A stretch of 64,000 bases of DNA from NCBI RefSeq assembly GCF_964204865.1, contig NC_135252.1, forward strand, positions 23,023,383 to 23,087,382. The letters run 5' to 3'. The position numbers and the translations under genes were made by a program. This document shows positions 5,426 through 64,000 of this stretch, piece by piece (within the stretch, counting starts at the first letter, position 1; each line of letters opens with the position of its first letter). The notes under the pieces were generated by a model, which saw only the letters and a list, made by a program, of their open reading frames with translations, had not been told where the DNA came from and made no database searches. This DNA comes from Styela clava (taxonomy: Eukaryota; Chordata; Ascidiacea; Stolidobranchia; Styelidae).

Positions 5426-6777
5426 TCAGCTTGTCGGTTTCAGTTCCATATGAAAAAACTTAACTGTCAACCTAACGGCAAGTTGTACATACTTTGATCT
5501 TTGGTGGGCCGTAACTCCTACATGAGCATTTGCCGCAGTCAGTTTGTGGACCGCAATGTCTTTTCGTAGGCCATTCAGCAAACCCCATATATATACTCGG
5601 ATGTTTGCATCGGAACATTCCTTGTAAGGCGTTGTGAAATCCTTCTACAGCGTTTGTTGTTCTTGGGGCCGAAGGCACCATTTCAATCTCTTTGACATAG
5701 TTCCACAATCGAGGGGGAAATCTTGTTTCTCTTGGACGTGAACCCACTTGAGGTCCACGAATGTAGGTAGATTCAAAATATTGCAAAAGTTGATTGCATT
5801 CGGGCAAATCTTCAAAGGTGTCGCAAAGCAAGGGGAAGACTTCGGCAACCTCGTTAATGGGAACAAAAGCCAGAGCTGCCGAACTTCTAATTTTCAGATT
5901 GAAAGAAGGTAAACATTCAAACTTCTCTTTTAATCCGATAGAACCAACTTTTCGAAATAGCTTGTGACAGGTGAAAATAACATTCTTTAAAATCGGCCAG
6001 AGGAAAATGTGCATGGAATGCATTGATAGCTGCTATTTCAATATCAACAATGATTTTGGTGGGGTTAGCATTTGGGAAAATGATTTTCAACGCTTCCAAC
6101 ATCTGAACGTATGTTTCTTGTCGCTTGTCTCGTAATAGGAAATATACGCATGGTGGATAGGATGCGCCCACTTTACAGTGAATTGTATACAACTGGAAGA
6201 AAATATCGGGCACCACATCAAATGTACCGTCGCCAAGATATGGGTCACTATCTAGATGTGCAAGTAGTGCTCGATCTCCAATGGCCATTATCCGATGACG
6301 ATCCTCCGAGCCAGTGTCATGCAAAATGATATCTAAATATTCGCTCGGAATATCAAAGCTTGCACTTGTAGGATTCGTACGTGAACAATTTTTCTGTCGC
6401 CTTACTCTGCGTATATTAGCCTCCAGAGTCGACTTGCCTGGCAAGCGCATTACTACATCTGTTGATCTATTATTCAATACTTCACCTAAAATATATCTTG
6501 TCGATGTATTTGATGGTGTTGATGCTGCTTCTTTTAATGTTGCACGGATGATCCCAACTTCAGTCTTAATGCTGTCGCCAGAATGACTGTGATATCCTAG
6601 TTCTTTTATTACATTTTCACCGATTGTAACAACAGTCGATTTACATCGAAATTTCCTAAACTGACGGCAGCGCCAATGAGTAGCATCTGAAACCCGATCA
6701 TTTCGCTTACAATATTCGTGGCCTTTGTAAATCAGTAAGTCGTTTCCTCTTGTGGTCATGGAAAATGTAGCCGCCAT
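5426..6777 (-). pseudogene. MULE transposase with FLYWCH zinc finger, two frameshifts
   Basis: The reading starts at 6777 (MAATFSMTTRG). An N-terminal FLYWCH-type zinc-binding segment follows (about residues 15-70: YKGHEYCK, HWRCRQF, FRCKST, YHSHSGD). The MULE transposase core comes next. Visible catalytic-triad candidates are Asp in LGDGTFDVVP, Asp in KIIVDIEIAAINAF and, after the first frameshift, Glu in NAVEGFHNAL. FKECYFHLSQA is the usual Cys/His block of the family. The frame shifts by one base near 5950-5985 and again near 5575-5590. The C-terminal helical part is then readable in another frame to a stop at 5426. Such a protein would cut and join the element's own ends in the nucleus; as it stands it cannot be made whole. 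Confidence 0.88.
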
Positions 6778-7264
6778 GTTTCCAACTTATTTTCGCAAAG
6801 GGACTTGTCATCTTCGCAGCTGCAACGTCCTAAAGAAACAGTTTGGAATTGTCTGCGAGGGGAAAAGGGCATTGATGCGAGGAAAAACTTTGCGCGGGAT
6901 CGAACTAACACATCAATTAAAATCCTTGCTCGCGCTCTTCAAGAGTCGTCGACCGTTCAAAGCACAAATCATACTCCCCAATTTTGGCTCGCATTCTACA
7001 GCGGAACATTTTGTCCATTGAGTCTTATGATATCGACAATTGCAATGACAATGGCAGACGGAGTATAATATAAATATATAATATAATTTAAATATATAGA
7101 AAATAGTTGTAATAAAGCCTTCGAGTATATAATCGAGAATTCCATGGTGTTTTCGCAACGTATGCATTTGGACAAAAAATCCTAAGTGTACCTTCCAATC
7201 CTATATACTATAGTATATAGCATGGAAGGATAAGGGTGTATATGTAAAGACGCATATATCCGTA

Positions 7265-13452: not shown

Positions 13453-14636
13453 TGGAGTCGTTCGAAGATCGTTTTCCTTTTTTACCGAGCCATTCTGTTT
13501 CTATAGGCTACTACACGGGATGGGTTATCATTGGAACGATCGAATACTCGGGACACAAAGGAGGTTGGTCATACTACGTTTTCCTCTCCCACTGGGACGA
13601 ATGGCTGATGGTCTTCAATTTTGGAATATCATTGTCTGTTGCAATATATGGATACTCTCAATTAAACGAACATGATTCAGGTAATTCAATAAATTGTTAC
13701 AGATCAGTATGTTCCCCAGCTTTTCACTTTAGTTGGGTTGTTTCCAAATTTAGGGGGTGTAGATCTTTTGTTATCAGTGATAAAACTATTTGTAACTTGT
13801 TAAAATGTGTTATGTATTTGACTGGTCATCTTCACCGGCATATGAGCCACTTTGAAATTTCAGCGAGGGTGTTCACAACCTATAGCGGGAGTGTAGGGAA
13901 ATCACTGTTGCAGATTCTTTGTGGTTAGGATGTTTTTAATCTAATACAGTAGTCGACAAACTGCCGGTCAAACTCTGAATTTAGCTTTAACTACTCGTTG
14001 CCTCAATATATTTATCCTACCGACAAGGAACCGGATTGTAATTGAAATCTTAAACCTTTTCAGTTTCCCTTTCAGCTAAGCTGGGAGTTCGAGGAAGCCC
14101 TCTGCAAACACGGCTCTAATATACCAATACTTCGTAGACGCCAATAGTCTACTTATATTTATCATTCTTTTATAGATGATCTTCGCTGGTTCCATAAATT
14201 ATCATGGGCAACTCGGTCTGTCAGCACCACCGTTGCTTACGTAGTCACCATCTTATTCTGGGCTTTGGTGAAAACAACAGCGAAGGCTTCAACCGCAGTC
14301 AACATACATCGACACGCACTGAACGCGGTGTTCGTCACAGTCGATCTTTTTGTGAGCAGAGTTCCAGTCAGGCTGTTCCATCTCGTATATTCAATGCTAA
14401 TAGGAATAACCTATTCTCTATTTACATACATAATTCATGCCGCCGGTGTGATGTCCCTTTTTTACACTAATGTACTAGACTGGGAAAAAACGCCGGTAAC
14501 TTCAATCATTGTCTGCGCCATAATAACATTTCTCGGTTTCCCATTGCTACACATTTTGACCTTTGGCATTTACCACTTGAGGGCGTTTATTGCCAGAAGC
14601 ATCTATGGACAAACCAAAGCACTAACAAAAGTTTAA
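13453..14636 (+). pseudogene. Rolling-stone-like membrane protein, copy 1, frameshifted
   Basis: Two exons match the second and third exons of the intact minus-strand copy: 13453-13680 (WSRSKIVF, then after a break YTGWVIIGTIEY through NEHDSG) and 14176-14636 (DLRWFHKLSWATRS through the family block NIHRHALNAVFVTVDLFVSR and a final HLRAFIAR). Rolling-stone proteins are multi-pass membrane proteins; the Drosophila founder acts in myoblast fusion. Exon 2 is exactly 5 bp longer than in copy 3, with the extra bases after the FL codons near 13503-13507. This puts a TAG in frame. No first exon resembling MATSCGYEF is found upstream, where a hAT element has inserted. The last exon is 36 bp shorter than in copies 2 and 3. 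It is read as a pseudogene, unless the new TTTCTATAG serves as an acceptor. Confidence 0.82.
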
Positions 14637-19721: not shown

Positions 19722-22552
19722 ATGGCAACAAGCTGGGGATATGAGTTTCAAAAAAAGCATTTTGGTTTTGCAGATGCCGTTGCAGAAGACTTCTATGTGT
19801 CTCAGGTACTAATTCTCTTATACATGTCGGCATTTTTATAGGCTTACCATACGCAGGGCTGGGCATTTTCGAATACCTGATGATTTCAGAATCGAATCGA
19901 ATAATTTTTTCGAATTGAATCGAATCTCGAATACTTGGGAGATATAAAACTGTATGTAACCTTCTTATTGTATTAGGTTTACCAGACACATAAATTACTG
20001 AAAACATAGAATACATCGCTCAGGCAGATTGTTGAGGGTTCACACACAATAAAAAACATGTTTTCATCAGTAACTCACTACAGGAAAGAGTCGTATGTCA
20101 GGATATCGTTGAAAAAATATGGCTTCCATAGAAAAAATTGAGAAATTTACCTCGACCATTGGCGGAAAAAAAGATGGCGGCGATTCGAAATTTTGCTCTG
20201 AACCGATTCGAATAATTTCATATTCGATTCGAAATGCCCAGCCCTAACCATACGTCCCGATTTTGACAAGTTATCCCGGCGTCCCTCCTAGTTGACTTGA
20301 ATGTCCCGGCCAAGGTTTCTTCTTAGGTGCGCTACTGCGCCATTGTACGATACCATCAGGTCATTTGTGCAGTAACATCTCATTCTCGCGCATTCGTAAC
20401 ATTACATTTTCAAAGCGTGGCTCGTTTTATTTCCTATCTACATTGGAAACACCCTACAAACAAGAGAACGATGCTCAAACATACGGACACGTAATCCAAA
20501 ACGACGTAGTGTGTGTGTGAAATATGCCACAGTAGACTACCGGTGCCAATCATCACAAAAACTCGAAACAGTCACCACGATGTCATAAACACGCGTTCCC
20601 ATGAGAACCCCTGACAAGGCCATATATGTCCCGTTTAGGCCTCGCACCGTCACTGTCACGTCAGCGAAATGCTCGCTAAATCCTACATAAAAATATACGA
20701 TGTCATAAAAGTGTGTTCCCACTTTGCGAAGTATTTCTAATCAATAGCCACGGAAACCCTAACCCTAACGAAATTTTAGACCCCATTTGCTTAGTGCAAT
20801 TAAAGTATTTTTTATTCATAAATTTTATAATGAAACACTTTTTATGACATCGTGTTTTTGAGCAACAGGATTTTGCTAGCATTTCGGTAGCGTGAAAGAG
20901 GTCTCGCACCTTATATAACTACAACATTTTCATCCTATTCTAGTGGTTCTCCAACAGACTACTATTCGTCGTCTACAAAGCACTTATATTCATCTACTGG
21001 ACAAGCTGGGTTATATACGGCACCATTTACTACGTAAACCTAAAAGACGTCGGATTTCGTTACCCGTTCTACCTCTCACACTGGGGCGAATGGACGCAAG
21101 TGCTGTATTACGGATTAACTTTAACAGTTGCATTGTATGGATTTTTAACAAGAAAATCTTCGACAAACGGCGAGATATGCTGTATACGGAATACATGCAA
21201 TAGAGGTGAATTTTTTGCTGTTTTATTTCATTTATTAGGATGTTGATTTCAATGAAATCTCAGACCGAGCCTTTGATGAAAGTAAGGACACAAGTCTCCA
21301 ACTGATCACTGGCGCTGTCAGCCAGGTTCGTATACCAGCGACTGTGCGAGTCGTGTAGTGGGTAGTTTAAGCTCATCTCGGTTAAATTTGCTGTGAGTAT
21401 TTTAGAATTTTACTGTATTGCTTTAAGCAAAGGGGAACACTTTTTAATCCATTTAATTTGTTCATCGGTGTTTTCAGCAAACTTGGTGGTCTCTCAGGCC
21501 TCATGAAACCAGTACCAGTGCTTGACTTTCGTGTCCATATATATGACCATTACTCTCTTGTTTTTAGGTTCAAATCATATAAAATACACAATTTAGTGTG
21601 CAATAGTAGCCCATTGCGTAGCTATTGTGTGTATTGGTTTATTATAAATTTGTTGGCTTTTTTGTGTTTTGATTTGGCTTTTTTTTTACCACTGGGATCT
21701 GGCAACACTGGTACTGATGCACGACCTTCCCTGTCCAATTATTACTACCAATCCTGAGATCGGTAAGTATGTTGATAAGTATTTTTCTGTTTGTTTGTCT
21801 GTCTGTTAGATGAACGCGATATTTCACGAAGGCGAGGTTGAATCTGCTCCGAATTTTGCATGTGCACTCATCATATCTTGGACCAGAAGTCTGTTGATTC
21901 TGGATGTATTGTCGTATAATTAGCGAGTTATTAATTAATTAGTGATGGGACACGCGGTGTCACTATGGATTCATGAATCGAAACCGCAGTTTCGATCGAA
22001 AAGGCTTCGGTCTCCGACCGATATTCTCGTTTGATCATTGCTCACTTGTTTTCAGGTGATCTACGTTGGTTCCATCATTTGTGCTGGGTTGTTCGGACAT
22101 CAGCTGTATCAGTATCGTATCTCATAACCATCGTATTTTGGGCGTTCGGATTGGAAAGCAAATCCCCGCCTCGTATCAATGTCCATCGCCATGCAATGAA
22201 TTCTATTTTAATAACATTAGATTTATTCATGGACAGAGTGCCGATACGGCTTCTTCATTTTGTGTACGCATCATTATTTGGACTTACGTATTCCCTATAC
22301 ACGGTATTTCTACATCTGGGTGGAGTGAGGTCTCGTTTCTATGATCCTTTGCTCGATTGGGAGAGAATTCCCGGTATTTCAGTTGGCGTCGCATTTGGGG
22401 TAACTCTGATTGCGTCACCTTTACTTCATGTTGTTGCATTCGGATTCTACCATTTGAGGGCGGTAATTGCCCGCCAATGTGGTTGCCATAGCGACACAGC
22501 GTCATCAACTCGGAGTGAAATTAATCCTGCTTTGGAAGAGGATATTGTGTAG
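19722..22552 (+). CDS. Rolling-stone-like multi-pass membrane protein, copy 2 (intact)
   Basis: Three exons splice in frame to 280 residues: 19722-19805 (MATSWGYEFQKKHFGFADAV, ends FYVSQ before GTACTA), 20944-21205 (WFSNRLLFVVYKALIFIYW, then a LSHWGEWTQV block) and 22056-22552 (GDLRWFHHLCWVVRTS to stop). Hydrophobic segments fall at the start of exon 2 (YKALIFIYWTSWVIYG), its end (GLTLTVALYGF), and in exon 3 at YLITIVFWAF, LLHFVYASLFGLTYSLYT and GVAFGVTLIASPLLHVV. The conserved family core INVHRHAMNSILITLDLFMD with the PIRLLHF block is in exon 3. Rolling-stone proteins are membrane proteins linked to cell fusion in Drosophila; the function here is inferred only from family. Exons 1 and 3 have exactly the lengths of copy 3. 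Its sequence is clearly more diverged than copies 1 and 3 are from each other. Intron 1 holds a hAT MITE, intron 2 a dispersed repeat. Confidence 0.88.
19854..20246. mobile_element. hAT-type MITE with 8-bp TSD in intron 1 of copy 2
   Basis: This 393-bp element has ends CAGGGCTGGGCAT and ATGCCCAGCCCTA. It is flanked by the perfect direct repeat ACCATACG (19846-19853 and 20247-20254). Subterminal TCGAATCGAAT motifs occur on both sides. It is the same family as 23336-23659 and 32183-32768. Confidence 0.9.
21760..22025 (+). repeat. Dispersed ~300-bp repeat in intron 2 of copy 2
   Basis: It shares ordered blocks with 931-1290 and 48800-49100: TCGGTAAGTATGTTGATAAG, the TCTGTCTGTTAGATG block, GAATCTGCTCC, TTGCATGTGCA and a GATGGGACACGCGGTGTCAC palindrome. 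Confidence 0.65.
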
Positions 22553-26109: not shown

Positions 26110-28065
26110 CTATATAACTTCAGTTTCAAAAGCTTGATTTGAGGTTCCAGTCAGTTCTTTGATTTGACTACTGGTTGCTATGCGCCTGGCAATAAACGCC
26201 CTCAAGTGGTACATGCCAAAGGTCAAACTGTGTAGCAACGGAACTGCGACGAAAACAGCCAGGATGCAAAGAACGATTGAAGTTACCGGCACTTTTTCCC
26301 AGTCTAGAGCATTTCTATAGAAAGAAGACATCACATCGGCAGCATGAATTATGTATGTGAATAAAACATAGGTTATTCCTATAAGCATTGGATATACGAA
26401 ATGAAGAAGCCTGACTGGGACTCTGCTCACGAAAAGATCGACTGTGACGAACACCGCGTTCAGCGCGTGGCGATGTATGTTGACTGCGGTTGAAGCCTTC
26501 GCCGTTGTTTTCACCAAAGCCCAGAATAAGATGGTGACTACGTAAGCAACGGTGGTGCTGACAGACCGAGTTGCCCATGATAATTTATGGAACCAGCGAA
26601 GATCACCTAGAAATAAGTAAATGATATTGATGAGTGGTGAAATTTAAAAGGTTCGGGCAGGTTATTATTCCGGACTAACAATTTTATTATCATCCAGAAT
26701 GATGTATCATGTATCGACCGGGATTGGAAAGATATTTGACCCGGTAAACCAACACAGAAGTATTATTACGTCATTATAACAAAACACTTGCCCCACTTTT
26801 TGGACTTGGTACGCTCTTGTGGTTACTTGAGTCCGCGCCGAATCGGCGACTTGAGTCGTCCAACGCTGCTGGGCAATATTGTAATAAATTGAATTACCTG
26901 AATCATGTTCGTCTAATTGAGAGTATCCATATATTGCAACAGACAATGATATTCCAAAATTGAAGACCATCAGCCATTCGTCCCAGTGGGAGAGGAAAAC
27001 GTAGTATGCCCAACCTCTTTCGTGTCCCGAGTATTCGATCGTTCCAAGGATAACCCAACCCGTCCAGTATAGAAACAGAATGATCCGGTAGACAATGAAA
27101 ATGATCTTCGAACGACCCCACTGGGAATGTATTTTTAAACAGGGTTAGAGAGAATGTAAGTTTCAATCCATCTTGTGACAGTGAACAGGGCTACGGCTTC
27201 ACTTACAGCGGGTGAATTCCCTTCTCCCTAAATTTTATACCCCTCATTTGAGGTGTCATACCACACTACACTTTCTCACTAAGTATAATTGCATTCAAAT
27301 ATATGAAGTATGGCATATTAACAATGCAGATCGTCTGCCAAATACATAACACATTTTAAATAGTTTTATCGCAAAATATTTACCACCGCCTAAATTTCGT
27401 AACACCCCCTTAAAATGAAAGGCTGGGGAACATACTCTACGAGAAAACATCCATTTTGCGATGGCCTGTGAAACTCGCATTCATATTCAAACAATCCAAT
27501 ACCCTAACCTATCCCTGTTCGAGATATCAGATGATAGCAGCCACAACGAGTCGCCTGGTTGATCATTTAAAAAAAAATCATATAATATTATATATAATTT
27601 TTCTTCTAGTTTGCTTAAAGTAAAGTCGCAAAAATAAAAAAAATATTGATGGAAAATTTTCAAGCCACCACCAATGCCGATAAAATTATAAACATTTAAG
27701 GAGATTTGTCTTTGCGAGACAATTAAAAAGTGGAAAAAATACCAAGAGAAACAAGATACATGTCAGTTATCGTTGCGAGAGAGATATTTAATAGATGAGT
27801 TTAAAATTTAAGTGAAGAAAATTTGGCCCTCCCTTAGTTTGTGCACCAAAATGGCGTACAATCCTAACCTGGTACACATAATATGTTCAGGTTGTGCGCC
27901 ATCTTGGTGCACATACTACAGGAGCACCGACAATATTGTAGCCAACTTTTGTTGCCTCATGTATCCAACTTACTAACGTACCTGTGATAGGTAGAACTCT
28001 CTCTTTGTGCAATCATCAAATCCAAAGTGTTTCAACTTGAATTCATAACCACAGCTGGTCGCCAT
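26110..28065 (-). CDS. Rolling-stone-like multi-pass membrane protein, copy 3 (intact)
   Basis: Three exons in frame give 267 residues: 27982-28065 (MATSCGYEFKLKHFGFDDCT, ends FYLSQ before GTACGT), 26898-27120 (WGRSKIIFIVYRIILFLYW to DEHDSG, donor GTAATT) and 26110-26606 (GDLRWFHKLSWATRS to stop). Exon phases match copy 2. Hydrophobic spans include IIFIVYRIILFLYWTGWVIL, VFNFGISLSVAIYGY, VAYVVTILFWALV, LLHFVYPMLIGITYVLFTYI and SIVLCILAVFVAVPLLHSL. These give a multi-pass topology without a cleavable signal peptide. The conserved family block NIHRHALNAVFVTVDLFVSR is present. A short palindromic MITE sits in intron 1. It is nearly identical in exon 3 to broken copy 1 but lies in opposite orientation, so a duplication with inversion is inferred. 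The role is inferred only from the family (membrane protein implicated in myoblast fusion in fly). Confidence 0.9.
27826..27924. mobile_element. Short palindromic MITE in intron 1 of copy 3
   Basis: The arms are TAGTTTGTGCACCAAAATGG and an inverted CATCTTGGTGCACATACTAC, with the centre CCTAACCTGGTACACA. It belongs to the short subfamily of the abundant palindromic MITE. Confidence 0.85.
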
Positions 28066-30515: not shown

Positions 30516-33500
30516 CTACTGGAACAGCTCGACTTCGTAATTCTCGTTTCTCTGATCAGCCATGAGTTGTTGGAATTGTCCTGTAAATGAAAACAAATAA
30601 GTTATGGAAAATCAAAAATCGCTGGCATATTAAAAGAGCCCATTTGAATGTCAGGGTCAGGCATTAGTTAATTTGACGACAACTTGGCAGCTTATGGGCA
30701 CGAAGTAGCATATGATCGTATTTTTCGTTATTGTTGCAGCTTTGAAAAATCTGTTTTCTCGGCAACTAATGGCCCAATTTCCATTACTTATAAATAGAAA
30801 TTAATAAGAGCGTAATCAGTCCGAAATTGGATTGGGGGGGATTTGGGTGGGGTGAACAGCCAGATAAAAGTAGACACTGTTATCCAACAAAATCTTTAAC
30901 AATCGCATTAAAGACTTACTTCGCTGTCAAAGTTATCCGAGGTGCATAAGCCTACATTTTAATCTATATCGTTTGGTTCATTTAATGAAAGGATTATTAA
31001 TAACAAGCCAGTAAACGTCTGTTTTTTGGAGGAGGAGAGGGGGTTACTTATCAAAGAAACTATACCAAAAATTGCGGGAATGTGAAATCAAACCAAGGCA
31101 ACAGAAAGGGCCAATAAGAAAACCGGAAAGTAGTGACTGGAAGCATCTAGCGCTCATCAACAGCCTAAACTTAAAGGGGGAGGCTCTACCTTGGGCTACG
31201 CCTATGTAGAGATAGTCGACTTGGCGCCGATATTTTACTCTGATTTATTGTTGGTTTTATAATTTACAGACACATTATTAAAAATTCGGTACATTTCGTT
31301 TAACAATTTTTTGACATTTCGGTTGCAGTGAAAATCAATAAAGTTGGAGCTATTGATCCAATATTTCCCCTTCTATCAGTTCTACCCGAAATCAATCGTG
31401 TTGATGTTTATATTCTACGGGCACACCTTTATATGACAGTCGGTACAAGTCTTCCATCAATATAATAAACAAAAATGGGAACATAGGTCCAACCATTTAC
31501 CTTCCGACATGTCCACAATCGCATCCAGTCCTTTCTCGATCATTTCAGCATTCTCTCCTTTCTGGGAGGCGATTTCGTCAGCTAATAGTGATCTCACAAG
31601 CTGGTATTCCGCTTCGTCCTTGAAGAAAAAGGGAACACTAAGTGAGTACAATGGGAACATTGAATTGTTTCGTGTATAATTTAAATCGGTTTAGAAGAGA
31701 ATTCGTTACTCCCGTAGTATATGTACCAGGTTAGGCTTAGGTCATAATTTTATTCCGATTTTTCTTATTTTAGTTCTATTGCGAGTTCGGTGACTGTCTT
31801 CGTTAGCCAAGTAAATATACCCCTGCCCATAGGCTTCCGTCCCTTTACACAAACTTGATGTAAAAAAGCGAAAAAATTAGTTACCACAATATTGGTATAC
31901 ATACTTCTGGAGCGCCGAAAATTCGGGTTGGCTTACTTTAATGGCATTTCGTAGTGAGTTAATGGGAACGCAGGAAAGACCACGATACTCGGTACGCGTA
32001 AGTTGAACAGGATATCATATTCATATTTATCTCGGGAGAGAGGAAAGCCGATAAGACGGATTATTGATATGGCGAACCTCTTATTACTAATTTATGTCGG
32101 GTATGAGATTAGTCAATCAGTTATTTAATTGTTACATGAACTTGATGGTGGAGGAAGCTCTAATTAATTGGGTGATGAATAGGGCTGGGAATTTTCGAAT
32201 ATCTGACGATTTCAGAATCGAATCGAATATTTTTTTTAAAGAAAATTTCGAATACATGAGAAGATATGTAGTTGCATCGACTATTTTAATCGGCACTCCC
32301 GTAGCATGTGAACCAAGATGGCGGACACCGGACCGTATTATCAGTACCAGGTTACTGATAATTTCAGGTACAAATACTACGGGAGTTAGCTGGCTAGTCG
32401 CCGAACTCGTAATAGAACTAAAATAAGGAAAATTATGGCCTAACCTGGTACACATACTACGTTACGGTGTTCGCCATCTTGGTTCACATACTACGGGAGT
32501 ACTTTTTATTGTGATGGGTTCTTAAGACACATAAATTAGTGGGAACACGTAATCTATATTTCAGACAGCTCTCTGAGTGTCAACACGACACACAGTAAAA
32601 ACATGTTCCACCAATAACTCACTTGGAAGAGAAGAATCACATCTCAGAATTGCATGTTAAAAATACGATATGAATATAAAAAATTGAGGGATTCCCCTCA
32701 GATGGCGGCAATTCGTAATTCCCGTCGAATTCGAATTTTTACTATTCGATTCGAAATGCCCAGCCATAGTAATAGCATATCCCATGCCTCATGTTCAGCT
32801 TACCATAGCTTTGATTCTCCTCAATTCCTTTAAATCTTGATCTCCGACCAATCCGGCTACTGCTTTTGCACACCTGTGTAAAAAATGAACTTTATTAAGC
32901 TACAACGACTTATTTAACTGAGCATCGATTTAGTCGAAGATATGGGGGGCGTATCAGTCGTAATGCCACGTGACGACGCCACATGGTCAAATATATAAAA
33001 CCAGTAAGTTGAAGCTAATTGTGGAGGTAAAAGGCTAGACTACGGGGTGTCCGTAAAGTCCCTTTTCAATTTTGCTATTAAGTCAGTTCTCAATATATCT
33101 TGACCAGGTTTGTTGTTTTTATTCAGTAAATATTCAAGTTTTTCACTTCATTCAATACATCTGTGAGGACCAAAACAATTTATGGTATCAATAAATTCTC
33201 TTTGCAATTTTAAAATTTTTTAAAACTTTATGGACAATCTATACTTTTTCCACCTTTAGTTACTAAAAATTTAAAATTGATTGGTCACTTAGTTGTGGAG
33301 GAAGCGACCTTTTCGACAACACCAATTCTCGTTCCGTTATCACATATTCAAGCATCAATAAAATTTTCTTTTTTTTGCAAGTTTACTCCGAGACTGCAAA
33401 CCGCGGCTATGAAGTAAGTATGAAGAAATTTACAACTGAATTGTCTGTTGAGAAGGCTTAATCAATTTATTATGTTTTTTTTTTTTTGACAATTTGGACT

Positions 33501-33781
33501 CCGATCACTACCACAAGAATTGCGACTGAATTCGAAGATTTTCACTTCGGAGATAATTTACCTCAATAGTCAATTACAGATGCCTTACATGAGCAAAAGA
33601 TATAAAATTCACAAAAAAAATAAAAATGTGATACTTACTTAATGGCGGTTCCCACATGCGGCTTAATTTTTTTTACCACGTGGAGAGCCTTTTTGATACC
33701 TTTTCTAATAAATCCCCAAGCATTTGAGTCATCCACAAATGCAAGGGACAAGAACACAACGAGTATGAAGGCAATTTTCAT
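30516..33781 (-). CDS. Secreted cationic amphipathic peptide precursor, candidate tunicate antimicrobial peptide
   Basis: Four exons join in frame to 131 residues: 33639-33781, 32804-32873, 31501-31618 and 30516-30580, each with GT-AG sites. A 5' UTR intron acceptor (TTTAACTTTCAG) ends at 33799. Residues 1-21 (MKIAFILVVFLSLAFVDDSNA) are a signal peptide with a small residue at the cut site. Residues 22-58 start WGFIRKGIKKALHVVKKIKP and carry nine Lys/Arg, two His and no acidic residue. Hydrophobics fall every 3-4 residues, followed by a Pro41/Gly44 hinge and a hydrophobic second helix with a single Cys49. Residues 59-131 are acidic (18 Asp/Glu, 8 Lys/Arg), with a dibasic pair at 66-67, and would balance the charge. 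Gly58 could donate a C-terminal amide. Signal, cationic helix and acidic tail is the layout of known ascidian antimicrobial precursors such as styelins. The lone Cys recalls halocidin, a disulphide dimer. Antimicrobial function is inferred; the gene structure is well supported. Confidence 0.8.
31706..31915. mobile_element. Palindromic MITE in intron 3 of the peptide gene
   Basis: It begins TCCCGTAGTATATGTACCAG, contains the GTTAGCCAAGTAAATATACC block and ends near ATTGGTATACATACTTCTGG. It is a long-subfamily member of the type with an asymmetric centre. Confidence 0.8.
32034..32108 (-). repeat. SINE 3' fragment, inverted
   Basis: Read on the minus strand it shows CCGACATA, the TTCGCCATATCAATAATCCG block and CTTATCGGCTTTCCTCTC, then the ATAAATAT end. 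It is the 3' tail of the tRNA-derived SINE. Confidence 0.7.
32183..32768. mobile_element. hAT-type MITE containing a nested palindromic MITE
   Basis: The ends are TAGGGCTGGGAATTTTCGAA and TTCGAAATGCCCAGCCATA, the same family as 19854-20246. A palindromic MITE (32293-32497, CACTCCCGTAGCATGTGAAC) sits inside it, so insertion order can be read: the hAT MITE entered the peptide-gene intron first. Confidence 0.8.
33044..33242. mobile_element. Mariner-like MITE in intron 2 of the peptide gene
   Basis: The ends are GGGGTGTCCGTAAAGTCCCT and an inverted AAACTTTATGGACAATCT. It is the same family as 47890-48067 and 59303-59492. Confidence 0.8.
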
Positions 33782-45800: not shown

Positions 45801-48800
45801 AACACGGCCGAAACGCCTCATTTTAAAAAAAAAGTCGGCGATAGAGTAGCCCCACCGAACCCGACCAGAACGTAATGATTGACATTTCAGGCCCAAACCG
45901 GCCCTGAATTTCGGGTCAGCTCGGGCTTTAGATCTTAGCTCTGGTATCAATCACTATATTATTCAATATTACAGTGTTGGTCGTGATTACGGTCGACTAA
46001 TGAAATATGGCGATTCATTATATCGATGCAAACAACTGAAAAGAGCAGCGCTTGGTAGGATGTGCACAATAATGAAACGACAAAAACAAAGTCTGGAATA
46101 TTTGGAGGAAGTTCGACAACACATGTCTCGTTTACCAAGCATTGATCCAAATACAAGGACTTTACTCATCAGTGGATTTCCAAATGTTGGGAAATCGAGT
46201 TTAATTAATAAGGTTTGGTCACTTTATTAATAATGCCCCTCTGCAAAAACTTGTGCAAGAACATTTTTTTTATGTAATTTTCCTAAACTTGCACGCCTGT
46301 TAGTCTGAACTAAGACTTGTAAAAGTAGCCACTGAAAGAGGTTCTCAAATGATGCGGCGTAGACGATTTTTTGAAGGGGCGAGAAGCTAATTGATTCACT
46401 GATTAATTGTTTTCCAAATGTTGGGAAATCGAATTTAATTTAGGGAGGTGGATCACGTTAATGGCTGGCTTTTGTATTGTGTGATTTTCTCAAAAACTAC
46501 TCATACTCCCGTAGTATGTGTACCAGGTTAGAATTGGGCCATAATTTTATTCACATTATCCTTATTTTAGTTCTATTACTAGTTCGGGGACTGTCTGTGT
46601 TAGCTAAATGAATATACCTCCTGCCCATAGGTTTCAGTCCATCTACACAACTTATGTAAAATGGGGTAACTAAATTAGTTACCTCCATATTGGAACACAT
46701 ACTTCTGGTGCGCCCTCATATTTTTACCCAAGCATTTTCATTCTGAATTTGTACAGGCATCTGCTTCTAGGTAAGAACGCATGAAAACTTTGGTGAGGTT
46801 GTGGTTGTCAGATTTAAACCTGAGATTACTAGCTGGGTATGCCATCAAAATTCAAATCCATCGGCTTAACGCTGCCACGCCAACTCATGGAATTTTTTTA
46901 TTGAAACGATATATATGGTTTTGAGATGCCGTGAAGCTAATTGAAAATAAAAATACTTGTTAGAAATAATATTGCCCCCTTTTGTTTGGAAATATAGCCT
47001 ACATTTCTTTATTGTTTAGAGATAAGGATTCCATCCACATATTTTTAACATGTTTTTTGGAAAAATATTTTTCTGTCGTACTATTGGAGTATCTGTTATT
47101 TGAAGCTTTTTGATAGCGTGTTATTATTGAGGTGGGGCATGAGAATGACAAATTCAAAAATGGGGGCACGGCTTGAAAAGTTTGATAATCACTGATTAAT
47201 ACATAACCTGTTTGTTACCTTGATTTCTTGGCTGGCACAACCCTAAACATGTCAGCATTAGGTGAATTGGACAGTGCTTAAACTGGATATCTAGTAGGCG
47301 CGAACAAAGTACCTGAATCCTCTTTTATTTTGGGTTTCAATAAATTGAGAACCGTATTGTAACAAGCATAATCCACCTTGTTTTATGTAGATTGAGATGA
47401 TGTTCATTTTATTATATGCTTTTGAAACCAAAGTCGATTCACCAGGCGGGCATTTTTTTCTGATAACCATACGCTTGAAGTATTTTGACTGAAAATATAT
47501 CATTGCCAAATTTCTGTAAAAACATTTTAAGTATTAAAAAAATGATATTTTAATTTTGATATTTTTTTGTACAGTTAACCAGAGCAGAAGTTGACGTGCA
47601 ACCATACGCATTCACTACCAAATCATTATTCGTTGGACACATGGATTATAAATACTTGAGATGGCAGGTTAGTTTTTTTTTTTTTTTTTTTAAATCATTG
47701 TTTTTTTTTAAATAAATTTTCTGGCAAAGCAGCCAGAATATACTGTTCTGTAGACCCAAATTATTTTGGTCCGGCATCGCCTACTCAATTAACCCGGTCA
47801 CACTAGGTGAGATATTGATCATCGGCCCAACTCAGGATCTGTAACCAAAGATGCGGACATAGTTAGCATTTAGTTTATTTATAATATAGAGGGTGTCCAT
47901 AAAGTCTGGCAATTTTTTAAAATTGCAGAGGGAATTCATCACAGATGTAGTGAATAGAGTAAGAATACTTGAACATTTACTTAATGAAAAACAACAAACC
48001 TGGTTAAGATACATTGAGAACTGACATCATAACACAATTGAAATTGTAAATGAACTTTGACACCCTGTATATCTAAGTTCACATTTTGCATTAAAGAAGG
48101 ACAATTTGAAGGATGATTTCAATTATCTTGAAACTAGCAGGATAGTTCCAGTTCAACATTGTCTACTGAATTTATTGTGAGTCAGTTGGCAGGCTTGTAC
48201 GACGACCCCTTTCATAGCGAAATAGTGAAAAAATTTTAATAATATAAATTATGATTCTTCCAGGTCATTGACACTCCAGGAATCCTAGATCATCCACTAG
48301 AGGAGCGCAACACAATTGAAATGTTGTCGATAACCGCTCTTGCTCATCTACGTTCCGCAGTCATTTACGTCATGGATATCTCGGAACAATGTGGTCAACC
48401 ACTAGAGGCACAATTGCAACTTTTCAATAATATTAAACCCCTCTTTGCTAATAAGGTGAGGTTTTATAATGTATGATCTTAAGGTTCTAAATTTATAAAT
48501 TGTAAGCAGTTTTCAACAAGTTTTAGTAACAACTAAAAACTACTTTTTTGTAGATAATAGTATTCTGACTTTTCTGCAGGATAGTTCTAATTTAGGAGAA
48601 AATTGAAAACCATGTTGCACGTATGAGGTAGAAATAAATAAGATTCATCTTTGAACAAAGTTAAAGGCAACAACTGATATGCAAAACATAGATTTATTGG
48701 GGTAATATTGTTCAAAATCGAGGTCAGCTTTCAGGGCGGCTTGACAGTTGATACATTGTGATAAGCATAAGGAACATGCTTGCCATTGCACCACTAATTA

Positions 48801-60980: not shown

Positions 60981-62792
60981 TTAGTTTTGTTGTTGATTTT
61001 TCTGTCCGAACTTGTTAGGATTCTTTGGTTTTAGTTGAGCTCTGACACCAAATCCTCCCCTTCCTGGGTCATAATCTGATCTGTATTCATCACGAACCTG
61101 AAGACAAAAACATAAATATGTAATTTTATCATAAAAAGTCTAGTCGTGCACAATTGGAAATGTGCATTTTCCAAAGATATTAAATTTGTGATTGAAAGCT
61201 TCAATATTAAATGATCAGGAAATAAACTGCACAGATAGGACACAGATAAAACATTTCAGCATAGATTTTCGATGTCATTACCTACCCAAAAATAAATTAA
61301 ATCAACTTTTTTAAATTACCAATTGAAAATTTATTTGACACAAGTTTAGACCCACATTTTGACTCATGCTTTTGAGTTTAATTTGAGGAATTTACCTAGC
61401 AAGTAGCAAGCATTACCCAAGATGTTGGGAAACATTTTTTCAGAATGAATTTGGAGAAGTGGATTATTAAGTGCTGGTTATCTCTGTCTTTACTCCTCTG
61501 TAATATACAAAACAACTGCAAAAAACATACCTGTCCACCAGATTTTCCTCTTCCAAATTGCCTTCCTTCTTTGAATCCAGCATCCCAGTCTGTTCGCACA
61601 ACTCTGTCATCAAGCCTCGTTCCGTTTATATACCTGATGGCATCAGCAGCGTGATCTCTTGCGTAGTATCTGAAATAAATGTACAGGGTGTCCATAAAGC
61701 TTTTTAACAATTTAAAAAAATTATTACATAGTAAAATGATGAGATATCGCAATGAGGGTTGTTTTATGTTAATCAGTATTTCATAAAATTGTTATTGACA
61801 CATTTAATACACTTATATACGGGCACCATCAGTTATAAAAAGCACATCCAGACGGTACTTAATTTCCTGTCATGTTCGTTGTAGCATAGCCTCATCAATG
61901 ATTGCAATGGCACTGGAAATTTGGGTCTAGTATAGTTTAGTACTACAAGTACTTCCAATGGACGTAGCATAACGAATTTTGCATATGTTATTCCTCACCC
62001 CCACCTGACTATGCCATCCACTACGACGAGGTCACCATCATGTCATAGAGCTTGCCAAAGTATAATTGAGATCGCCCGAAATGGCATCTGCGACGCTGAT
62101 AACGAACTCGCTAACGCCGGCTATCTCCCTCCTACCTCGATTTCGGGTGATCGTCTGCGCATTTTGGACGACCATCCGCATACTTTGGTGGGCCTTCTTA
62201 CGCCACTTTGACGTCGAAATGACGTAATGTTTCGGTGACGTAGTCAGGCGGGGGTTAGGATTGACATGTGCAAAAATTGTTGAGCCAGGCCAACTAGAAG
62301 TGCATGTGGTACTAAACTATACCAGACCTGTAAATTATATGTTTTAGGTTGGTCATGTCCCGTTTATTTGTTCGATACACAATATACTTTATATAACCCT
62401 AAAGAAAGAAGTCCAGAGGGCTCGTATCTTGTTTCCTAGGGCTCCAAGAAAATGACTGTTGAAAATTTGAGAAAACGATGTGTAATTGACTATACCCCAC
62501 AAAAAAACTTTACTTACTCAACAAAGCAAAAGCCGCATGGCGTTTTCTTATATTTATCTAAACCCATAACAACTCGTTTAATATCTCCGCATTTTCCAAA
62601 GAGTTCATATATCTGTTCTTCTGTTGTATAATATGATAAATTCCCAACATAAAGCGTTGTAGTCAGGTTCAAAAGCTTGTCTTGTTGGTCACGACTCCCC
62701 TTGAAATGCTGATCGCGGTACGGCGTTAGTTCTACGTAAGGATCCTTGGCTACAGGCCTTAAAATAGTCTTTTCCGTTATATCCACATCCAT
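60981..62792 (-). CDS. NCBP2: Nuclear cap-binding protein subunit 2 (CBP20), complete
   Basis: CBP20 binds the 7-methylguanosine cap of nuclear RNA polymerase II transcripts with CBP80. Three exons splice in frame to 176 residues (human 156): 62518-62792, 61531-61669 and 60981-61097, all GT-AG. The single RRM has RNP2 LYVGNL (47-52) and RNP1 CGFCFVEYY (86-94). Tyr25 (in PYRDQHF) and Tyr48 align with the human cap-stacking tyrosines 20 and 43. The conserved [17 protein letters not shown] stretch and the C-terminal Gly/Arg region ([15 protein letters not shown]) are present. The extra length is mainly a C-terminal Lys/Asn/Gln tail. The start chosen is MDVDI; a Met 13 codons upstream in frame is less likely. 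Intron 1 holds a fold-back MITE and a mariner-like end. Confidence 0.96.
61681..61735. mobile_element. Single mariner-like MITE end beside the NCBP2 exon 2 acceptor
   Basis: It starts TACAGGGTGTCCATAAAGCT, matching the left end of the 47890 family. No inverted right end is found nearby. On the minus strand the fragment ends about 11 bases before the exon 2 acceptor (ATTTATTTCAG). Confidence 0.65.
61929..62326. mobile_element. Fold-back MITE in NCBP2 intron 1
   Basis: The arms are GTATAGTTTAGTACTACAAG then TACTTCCAATGGACGTAGCA, and at the right GAAGTGCATGTGGTACTAAA then CTATACC. CGCCCGAAATGGCATCTGCG and the GATCGTCTGCGC block match 41840-42262. Confidence 0.87.
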
Positions 62793-64000
62793 TTTAATAA
62801 GTGTTACTCCTCCAATAGTGAGAATGAACAATATTTTAAAAATATTCGAGAAAACGCGTTTACAGTTTCACAACCCTGCAGCTACACCTCTGTGAAGTTA
62901 GCAGAAAATGTTGGGCCTACTCTAACCTTTGACCCAAGATCTTCGTAATTATTCGGGCATGCTTTGGGCTTGAAGTGAAAGTGAAATAATTCGGCCCGCG
63001 ACGCTCCACTGAAGTATAGATACAAAACGGCTGCTTTGACGATTATATTTTTTAGGTAACAGAGTTTATTGTGAGTCACGTGTAGACTAAATTATAATAT
63101 GACCTAACACGCAAAAAGTATTCAAATGGACTTTTTGAGGTGCAACGCATTGGGGAAATAAATCTATATTCTATTCGAGAGGTGTATCACTGGTTGATTT
63201 TTATAAAAAAGTATTTTCTTTGAGGAAAACTCTATCCAAAATTAACAACAAAATTAACCATGCGAAAAAATTCACATTGATGTTTTTGGAAGTAGGCTAC
63301 ATATGCATGCGAACAATTATTTTCGAAAATGAACATAACAAAAAACAAGAGAGCTATGCTCAAATATATGGACACGTAGACTCACATAATTTTGATGACG
63401 TCATAGCGAAAAAAAAGTAATAGCCTTTATCTTGAACCAATGAAAATTTCAAAGCAATTGGTCCAGTATTCGAAGAGAAAAGCGACTTCTTCAAAACGTG
63501 TTGATGGAGACAAATAATAACAATAACAACAAAATTTTGAAACGATCGTTATGTCCACTACGTGTCCAACAAGCAGAAAACTCGGATGAGTGATTCCCAT
63601 TTATATAAAATGTTTTAATCTTGGTTTCATCCAGTGTCCGATTTGAAAATGTTTCCCAATTAGTGTGATGTCGAAAACGTATCAAGCGTGATGCATTAAA
63701 AAGTGTCACGTTAAATGTCAATAGTAAATTTTTTTCTGAAAGTAAAATGACGAAGTTTAGTTCATGAGTTGTCTCGGTTTTTGCGTGCTGCTTAAAATTT
63801 AAAATTTTCACTTCTGTCTGTGTGAAAATTGTGATTTATCGGCCATTCGTTCGGTTTTTATTTTTCTAAAAAAATATGCGGCCATAATTTTGGTCCGCGA
63901 GCTACAAAAGGTTGCCGAGCCACGGCCTAGCCTAGACCCTAGGACAGGGATTCCGGACGTGGTTCAGATGGACCCCCAGGTGACTAGTCCAAAATTGTAC
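62793..64000. other. Upstream region of NCBP2 to the window edge
   Basis: The NCBP2 promoter should lie here, but no core element is clear. A TTTTGATGACGTCATAGCG motif occurs around 63391-63409. At the right edge, 63880-63960 has a TGGTCCGCGAGCTACAAAAG and GTTGCCGAGCCACGG stretch that resembles a hAT-type end. No gene is supported. Confidence 0.45.

Follow-up and report, generated by a model that had tools for sequence, protein, structure and literature searches.

What does the four-exon gene in this stretch of Styela clava DNA (64,000 nucleotides, hereafter the window) encode? The initial annotation had read it as a gene for an antimicrobial-type prepropeptide, possibly an immune effector of haemocytes, in a family that it did not recognise. 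Styela clava is the source animal of the purified styelins and clavanins. We compared the gene with both groups, and with its relatives in the genome.

Gene structure and coding sequence

Splicing of the four exons on the minus strand (Table 1), all of them bordered by GT-AG, yielded 396 nt encoding 131 residues, with intron phases 2, 0 and 1. The protein was identical, letter for letter, to the product of uncharacterized LOC120343063 of Styela clava (P0001), so that the gene is already recorded at NCBI as an uncharacterized protein. Because of this identical model, and because all four exons and their phases recur in two paralogues on this contig, the gene is real and correctly read and not a chance reading; the exons, phases and length given by the initial annotation were thereby confirmed. 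The counterpart of exon 1 in a paralogue lies at C3:22999806-22999960, and the residues of exon 3 are 71.8 and 82.1% identical to those of two C3 paralogues.

Two repeats lie within intron 2. The inverted-repeat element spans 32295-32500, with arms at 32295-32354 and 32441-32500 that start ACTCCCGTAGCATGTGAACCAAGATGGCGG. For a short repeat element at 31707-31924, dozens of genomic matches were spread over many contigs; most of the best 40 candidates scored had 85-90% identity. Small non-coding transposable elements would be expected to show such a copy pattern. Elsewhere in the window, the three frames that match Rost are probably exons of a local membrane-protein family.

Table 1. Features of the window, with positions counted from its first nucleotide
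Feature	Position	Strand	Remarks
MULE-type transposase fragment with FLYWCH zinc finger	5917-6786	-	
Open frame matching Pfam Rost (protein rolling stone)	14148-14636	+	E 3.8e-12
Open frame matching Pfam Rost (protein rolling stone)	21977-22552	+	E 5.4e-12
Open frame matching Pfam Rost (protein rolling stone)	26110-26643	-	E 5.2e-12
Exon 4	30516..30580	-	C-terminal acidic tail and stop codon; most of the motif shared with the styelin tail
Exon 3	31501..31618	-	Middle of the acidic helical pro-domain; end phase 1
Intron 2	31619..32803	-	Contains an inverted-repeat element of ~206 bp
Exon 2	32804..32873	-	Last part of the cationic segment (CAKAVAGLVG), then the first part of the acidic pro-domain, from D59; end phase 0
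Exon 1	33639..33781	-	Signal peptide (1-21), followed by the larger part of the cationic peptide; end phase 2
Predicted mature cationic peptide, exon-1 part (from W22)	33639..33718	-	
Signal peptide, residues 1-21	33719..33781	-	Predicted cleavage SNA/W; aligned with the styelin start SEA/GW
Open frame matching NOG1-type GTPase N-terminus	45883-46230	+	
Open frame matching RRM domain	62514-62867	-	

A gene family in Styela clava

A genome search with the window protein returned the window gene and two four-exon genes on C3, B (22999806-23002856) and C (23011007-23015589), together with weak matches on C10 (E 0.74) and C6 (E 2.1), both of which were relatives once read out. Searching with a C10 member returned a cluster at ~6.36-6.43 Mb of C10 and a copy on C19. 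The genome thus holds nine intact four-exon readings, three on C3, four in the C10 cluster and one each on C19 and C6, named A (the window gene), B, C, D, E, C10b, C10c, C10f and C19. The phases 2, 0 and 1 were found without being imposed in A to E, and the script used for the other four allowed this pattern only; their agreement is therefore independent evidence for A to E alone. Six of the nine readings were identical to NCBI proteins (A to P0001, B to P0003, D to P0005, E to P0008, C10b to P0011 and C19 to P0007). C differed from P0004 at 4 residues and C10f from P0005 at 6, and for C10c no identical protein was present among those fetched, so that the script is the sole source of C10c and C10f.

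Three further copies, C10a, C10d and C10z, are incomplete or doubtful. Such copies stand beside intact ones at C10:6363001-6369000 (L061), 6407001-6413000 (L064) and 6250001-6256000 (L067), and one of them gives a glycine-rich first-exon reading. The incomplete copies look like what gene birth and decay within the cluster would leave.

When public proteins were searched with a profile, 13 entries were listed, all from Styela clava and all named "uncharacterized". This search and two others, which listed 4 and 14 proteins, gave Styela clava proteins exclusively, by a method that needs shared 5-residue words and so does not establish that other sea squirts lack the family. Neither the window protein nor any other scanned member scored above the cut-off of a Pfam family. 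The rows below cut-off included CENP-T_C, GLTP, Lon_lid and GatB, among others; CENP-T_C recurred in two C3 members and GatB in three members of the C10/C19 type. In the open-licence literature, no paper was found for three of the family's LOC numbers, and the matches listed contained no described family. The family is apparently undescribed, and it seems to diversify fast.

Charge layout and predicted structure

Residues 22-58 carry a charge of +9 with no aspartate or glutamate, and the 73 residues from 59 to 131 carry -10. The layout of signal peptide, cationic amphipathic segment and acidic tail stood up to this recount, as did the hydrophobic positions, Pro41 and Gly44 listed by the initial annotation, which had also proposed a helical-moment prediction. 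The moment of residues 22-39 was 0.60, reached by 57 of 5,000 shuffles of residues 22-57, and that of paralogue B was 0.76 (4 of 5,000). In the same comparison (AMPHIPATHICITY), the observed moment was reached by 0 shuffles of 5,000 for P0002, 24 for C, 83 for D, 4 for P0006, 0 for P0007, 24 for P0011 and 587 for E, by 653 and 52 for styelins g1 and g3, and by 695 for the window pro-domain. Amphipathicity therefore exceeds the expectation from composition in most tested members, but not in E or in styelin g1; as both of these are unremarkable, the helical moment separates poorly.

The AlphaFold2 model (mean pLDDT 54.4) contains helices at 22-39 and 41-57, with pLDDT <50 for residues 1-47 and block means of 69-78 across residues 61-120. 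The residues of the proposed Pro41/Gly44 hinge are present, and the hinge itself is suggested by the helix break in this model at pLDDT <50. A fold search with the model gave no match at E ≤ 0.001 (best 1.8), and the best E of a PDB sequence search with the window protein was 0.24.

Relation to styelins

The Pfam styelin profile (PF17562) identified three genes on C10 near 16.31-16.34 Mb. Each has four exons with phases 2, 0 and 0 and encodes 80-81 residues with a 26-residue pro-piece, in agreement with the published precursor (PMC8659048). Two of the readings matched NCBI proteins in every residue, namely styelin-C (P0014) and styelin-C-like (P0015), and the third was 10 residues away from styelin-D-like (P0016).

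At full length, the similarity between the two groups was clear. With a family HMM, all three styelins scored 22.3-24.4 bits, whereas none of 900 shuffles exceeded 10.7. In the reverse direction, the styelin HMM gave the window protein 22.9 bits, against a shuffle maximum of 10.1 (1253 reported of 1300), and placed 11 of 13 family proteins above that maximum; P0012 (9.7) and P0008 (7.8) fell below it. Once the signal peptide was removed, the similarity became marginal. The family HMM then gave the styelins 11.8, 10.7 and 10.5 bits, with a maximum of 10.7 in 1500 shuffles, and with the styelin HMM the scores of 12 members ranged over 3.5-12.6 bits, that of the window protein being 11.3. Three of the 12 scored higher than any shuffle, the best shuffle reaching 11.8 (1713 reported of 1800). 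The profile-profile match covered 28 columns, comprising the signal peptide and the cationic start only. The window protein missed the Pfam Styelin cut-off of 27 bits (12 bits, E 0.29); the highest score among the other members was 12.2 bits, and for 7 of 13 entries on the family list no styelin row appeared at E ≤ 10.

Both groups have a similar signal peptide that ends in S-x-A and is followed by a Trp-led cationic peptide, and a first intron of phase 2 within the cationic part and a second of phase 0. Their acidic tails have a motif similar to M[STP]DEEF..FM, which stands out most in the C10 members of the family. The window gene also has the Gly-Asp of styelins at the border of mature and pro parts (G58-D59). 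They differ in the third intron (phase 1 in the family, 0 in styelins). The window peptide starts with WG, whereas styelins start with GW, and it lacks the KHK motif. Its precursor is also longer (131 versus 80-81 residues), with an acidic part of 73 instead of 26 residues and thus ~47 extra pro-domain residues; the alignment of the two groups has one large gap in the pro-domain.

The family and the styelins are thus probably distant kin that share an ancestor. We regard this common origin as probable and not as proven, because the similarity leans on the signal peptide and the remainder is chiefly the tail motif. The remark in the initial annotation that it did not recognise the family was half right: no Pfam family reaches its cut-off and no papers were found on the three LOC numbers, but distant kinship with styelins is probable.

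Comparison with other peptide precursors

Botryllin of Botryllus schlosseri is a styelin-like peptide with a mature part of 37 residues, located in the granules of morula cells; in synthetic form it kills both bacteria and yeast (PMC9966394). Its 158-residue prepropeptide resembles the 131-residue window protein in being a long, styelin-like precursor. When the two were compared by means of three botryllin epitopes, one propeptide epitope aligned at the expected place (89 of 5,000 shuffles as good), and for the other two the alignment was no better than chance (3953 and 3812 of 5,000). The Ci-MAM/Ci-PAP precursors of Ciona, whose signal peptides are conserved, share the layout of signal, cationic helix and anionic helical tail, in that order (PMC7387483). 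As described, the Ciona screen was restricted to cysteine-free sequences and to precursor lengths of 50-100 residues (PMC7387483), and for these two reasons it would have missed the type of the window gene.

Clavanins (Pfam PF05452), also from Styela clava, are likewise cationic peptides with an acidic extension (PMC8719109). Two clavanin genes lie at C1:10537219-10538484 and C1:10573609-10574874, matched at profile positions 1-17 (below cut-off) and 23-80. The clavanin match thus falls in two pieces on C1 with another exon layout, and for the window protein there was no PF05452 row at E ≤ 10; membership of the clavanins was rejected. So was membership of the insect cecropins, Styelin alone being listed by Pfam at E ≤ 10, a threshold at which HMMER filters drop most matches above about E 0.1. 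The cecropin-like character proposed earlier holds for the physics of the peptide and finds no counterpart in a Pfam profile match.

Variation in the cationic segment

Five loci for which two versions each were available (from NCBI, UniRef or the present genome) were compared. In three pairs the cationic segment diverged strongly while the acidic tail was nearly constant: P0001/P0002 (25/37 identical residues in the mature part, 72/73 in the pro part), P0005/P0006 (26/46 and 74/80) and P0008/P0009 (16/27 and 73/77). Two pairs showed no such effect in substitutions, namely P0004/C (43/44 and 70/73) and P0010/P0011 (43/43 and 74/79; here the mature part also contains 6 gap columns). Pooled identity was 153/197 for mature and 363/382 for pro parts (Fisher p 1.3e-9, with residues within a pair not independent). 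The paired versions may be alleles, lineage differences or wrong gene models, any of the three.

The DNA of A and B varied in a similar way. The mature part of exon 1 was identical at 55/80 positions, compared with 412/457 in the 5' flank and intron 1 (Fisher p 2e-6) and 55/63 in the signal-peptide part; the alignment has 132 gap columns under the mature part, which makes the border of the divergent segment uncertain. Overlapping alignment blocks suggest that B carries an insertion near the end of exon 1. Positive selection on the mature part was not shown by dN/dS, which was 0.45 there between A and B, and synonymous differences were also high (pS 0.57-0.77 in the mature part versus 0.19-0.35 in the pro part); for A-C and B-C, saturation of these differences made the mature dN/dS not computable. 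Because of the high synonymous divergence, conversion, misalignment and an older allele split are equally possible causes.

P0002, another protein that NCBI/UniRef record with the LOC number of the window gene, matched B at 30/39 residues of its cationic part and the window gene at 25/37. This pattern is what an exon-1 swap between paralogues could leave; a wrong gene model could produce it as well. We put forward only tentatively that these genes form a new immune-effector family, in which a constant signal peptide and a long acidic, chaperone-like pro-domain would carry a cationic cassette subject, within the species, to exchange or rewriting at one and the same locus.

Proposed maturation and alternative functions

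The window gene likely encodes a styelin-type secreted antimicrobial prepropeptide with a long acidic pro-domain, probably descended from an ancestor shared with styelins. This agrees with the initial annotation, whose antimicrobial reading gains indirect support from the family comparison, apart from its view of the family as wholly unfamiliar. The signal peptide would be removed after A21, and residues 22 to ~57 would form a cationic amphipathic peptide, probably helix-break-helix, that damages microbial membranes. The acidic helical pro-domain (59-131) may keep the peptide harmless in storage. By analogy with styelins and botryllin, storage in haemocytes and subsequent release would be expected. 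The single Cys49 would permit a disulphide dimer of the window peptide, as reported for dicynthaurin and halocidin (PMC2866484); B and C lack this residue. Styelins are cleaved before Asp (PMC7387483), and a cut before D59 would place G58 at the C-terminus, where, as proposed by analogy with styelins, it might donate an amide. Gly directly precedes Asp in the window gene, C and E; it does not in B, D, C10b, C10c, C10f and C19, and amidation would therefore not be general in the family.

A layout of signal, cationic and acidic parts is not unique to antimicrobials, which counts in favor of a secreted cationic peptide that has another job, such as signalling, scaffolding of tunic or mucus, or polyanion binding, and kills no microbes. 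The weak amphipathicity of member E fits such a role. However, it is the cationic segment, not the conserved pro-domain, that diverges in three of the five version pairs and between A and B, unlike what would be expected of a receptor-bound peptide; together with the probable styelin kinship, this makes another job unlikely in our estimation. Good conservation of the pro-domain, where the AlphaFold2 confidence is also highest, would suit a different arrangement, in which the acidic helical domain would itself be the functional product, with the cationic part serving as a variable linker or targeting segment. Yet the model had no fold match at E ≤ 0.001, and the antimicrobial precursors of Ciona and frogs also lose an anionic pro-region (PMC7387483), so that we consider this arrangement very improbable.

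Still more remote is the chance that exons were mispredicted or that the gene has decayed. The incomplete or doubtful C10 copies illustrate that decay could occur in this family, but the frame of the window gene is intact, its splice sites follow the consensus and the NCBI model is identical to it, and four further genes share its phases, found without imposing them.

A larger family of candidate effectors appears uncharacterized in Styela clava despite the work on styelins and clavanins in this animal. If the variation of its loci among individuals is concentrated in the active peptide, these loci would provide a compact natural test of how peptide antibiotics diversify in a chordate without antibodies, and the same loci would also test the role of the long acidic pro-domain.
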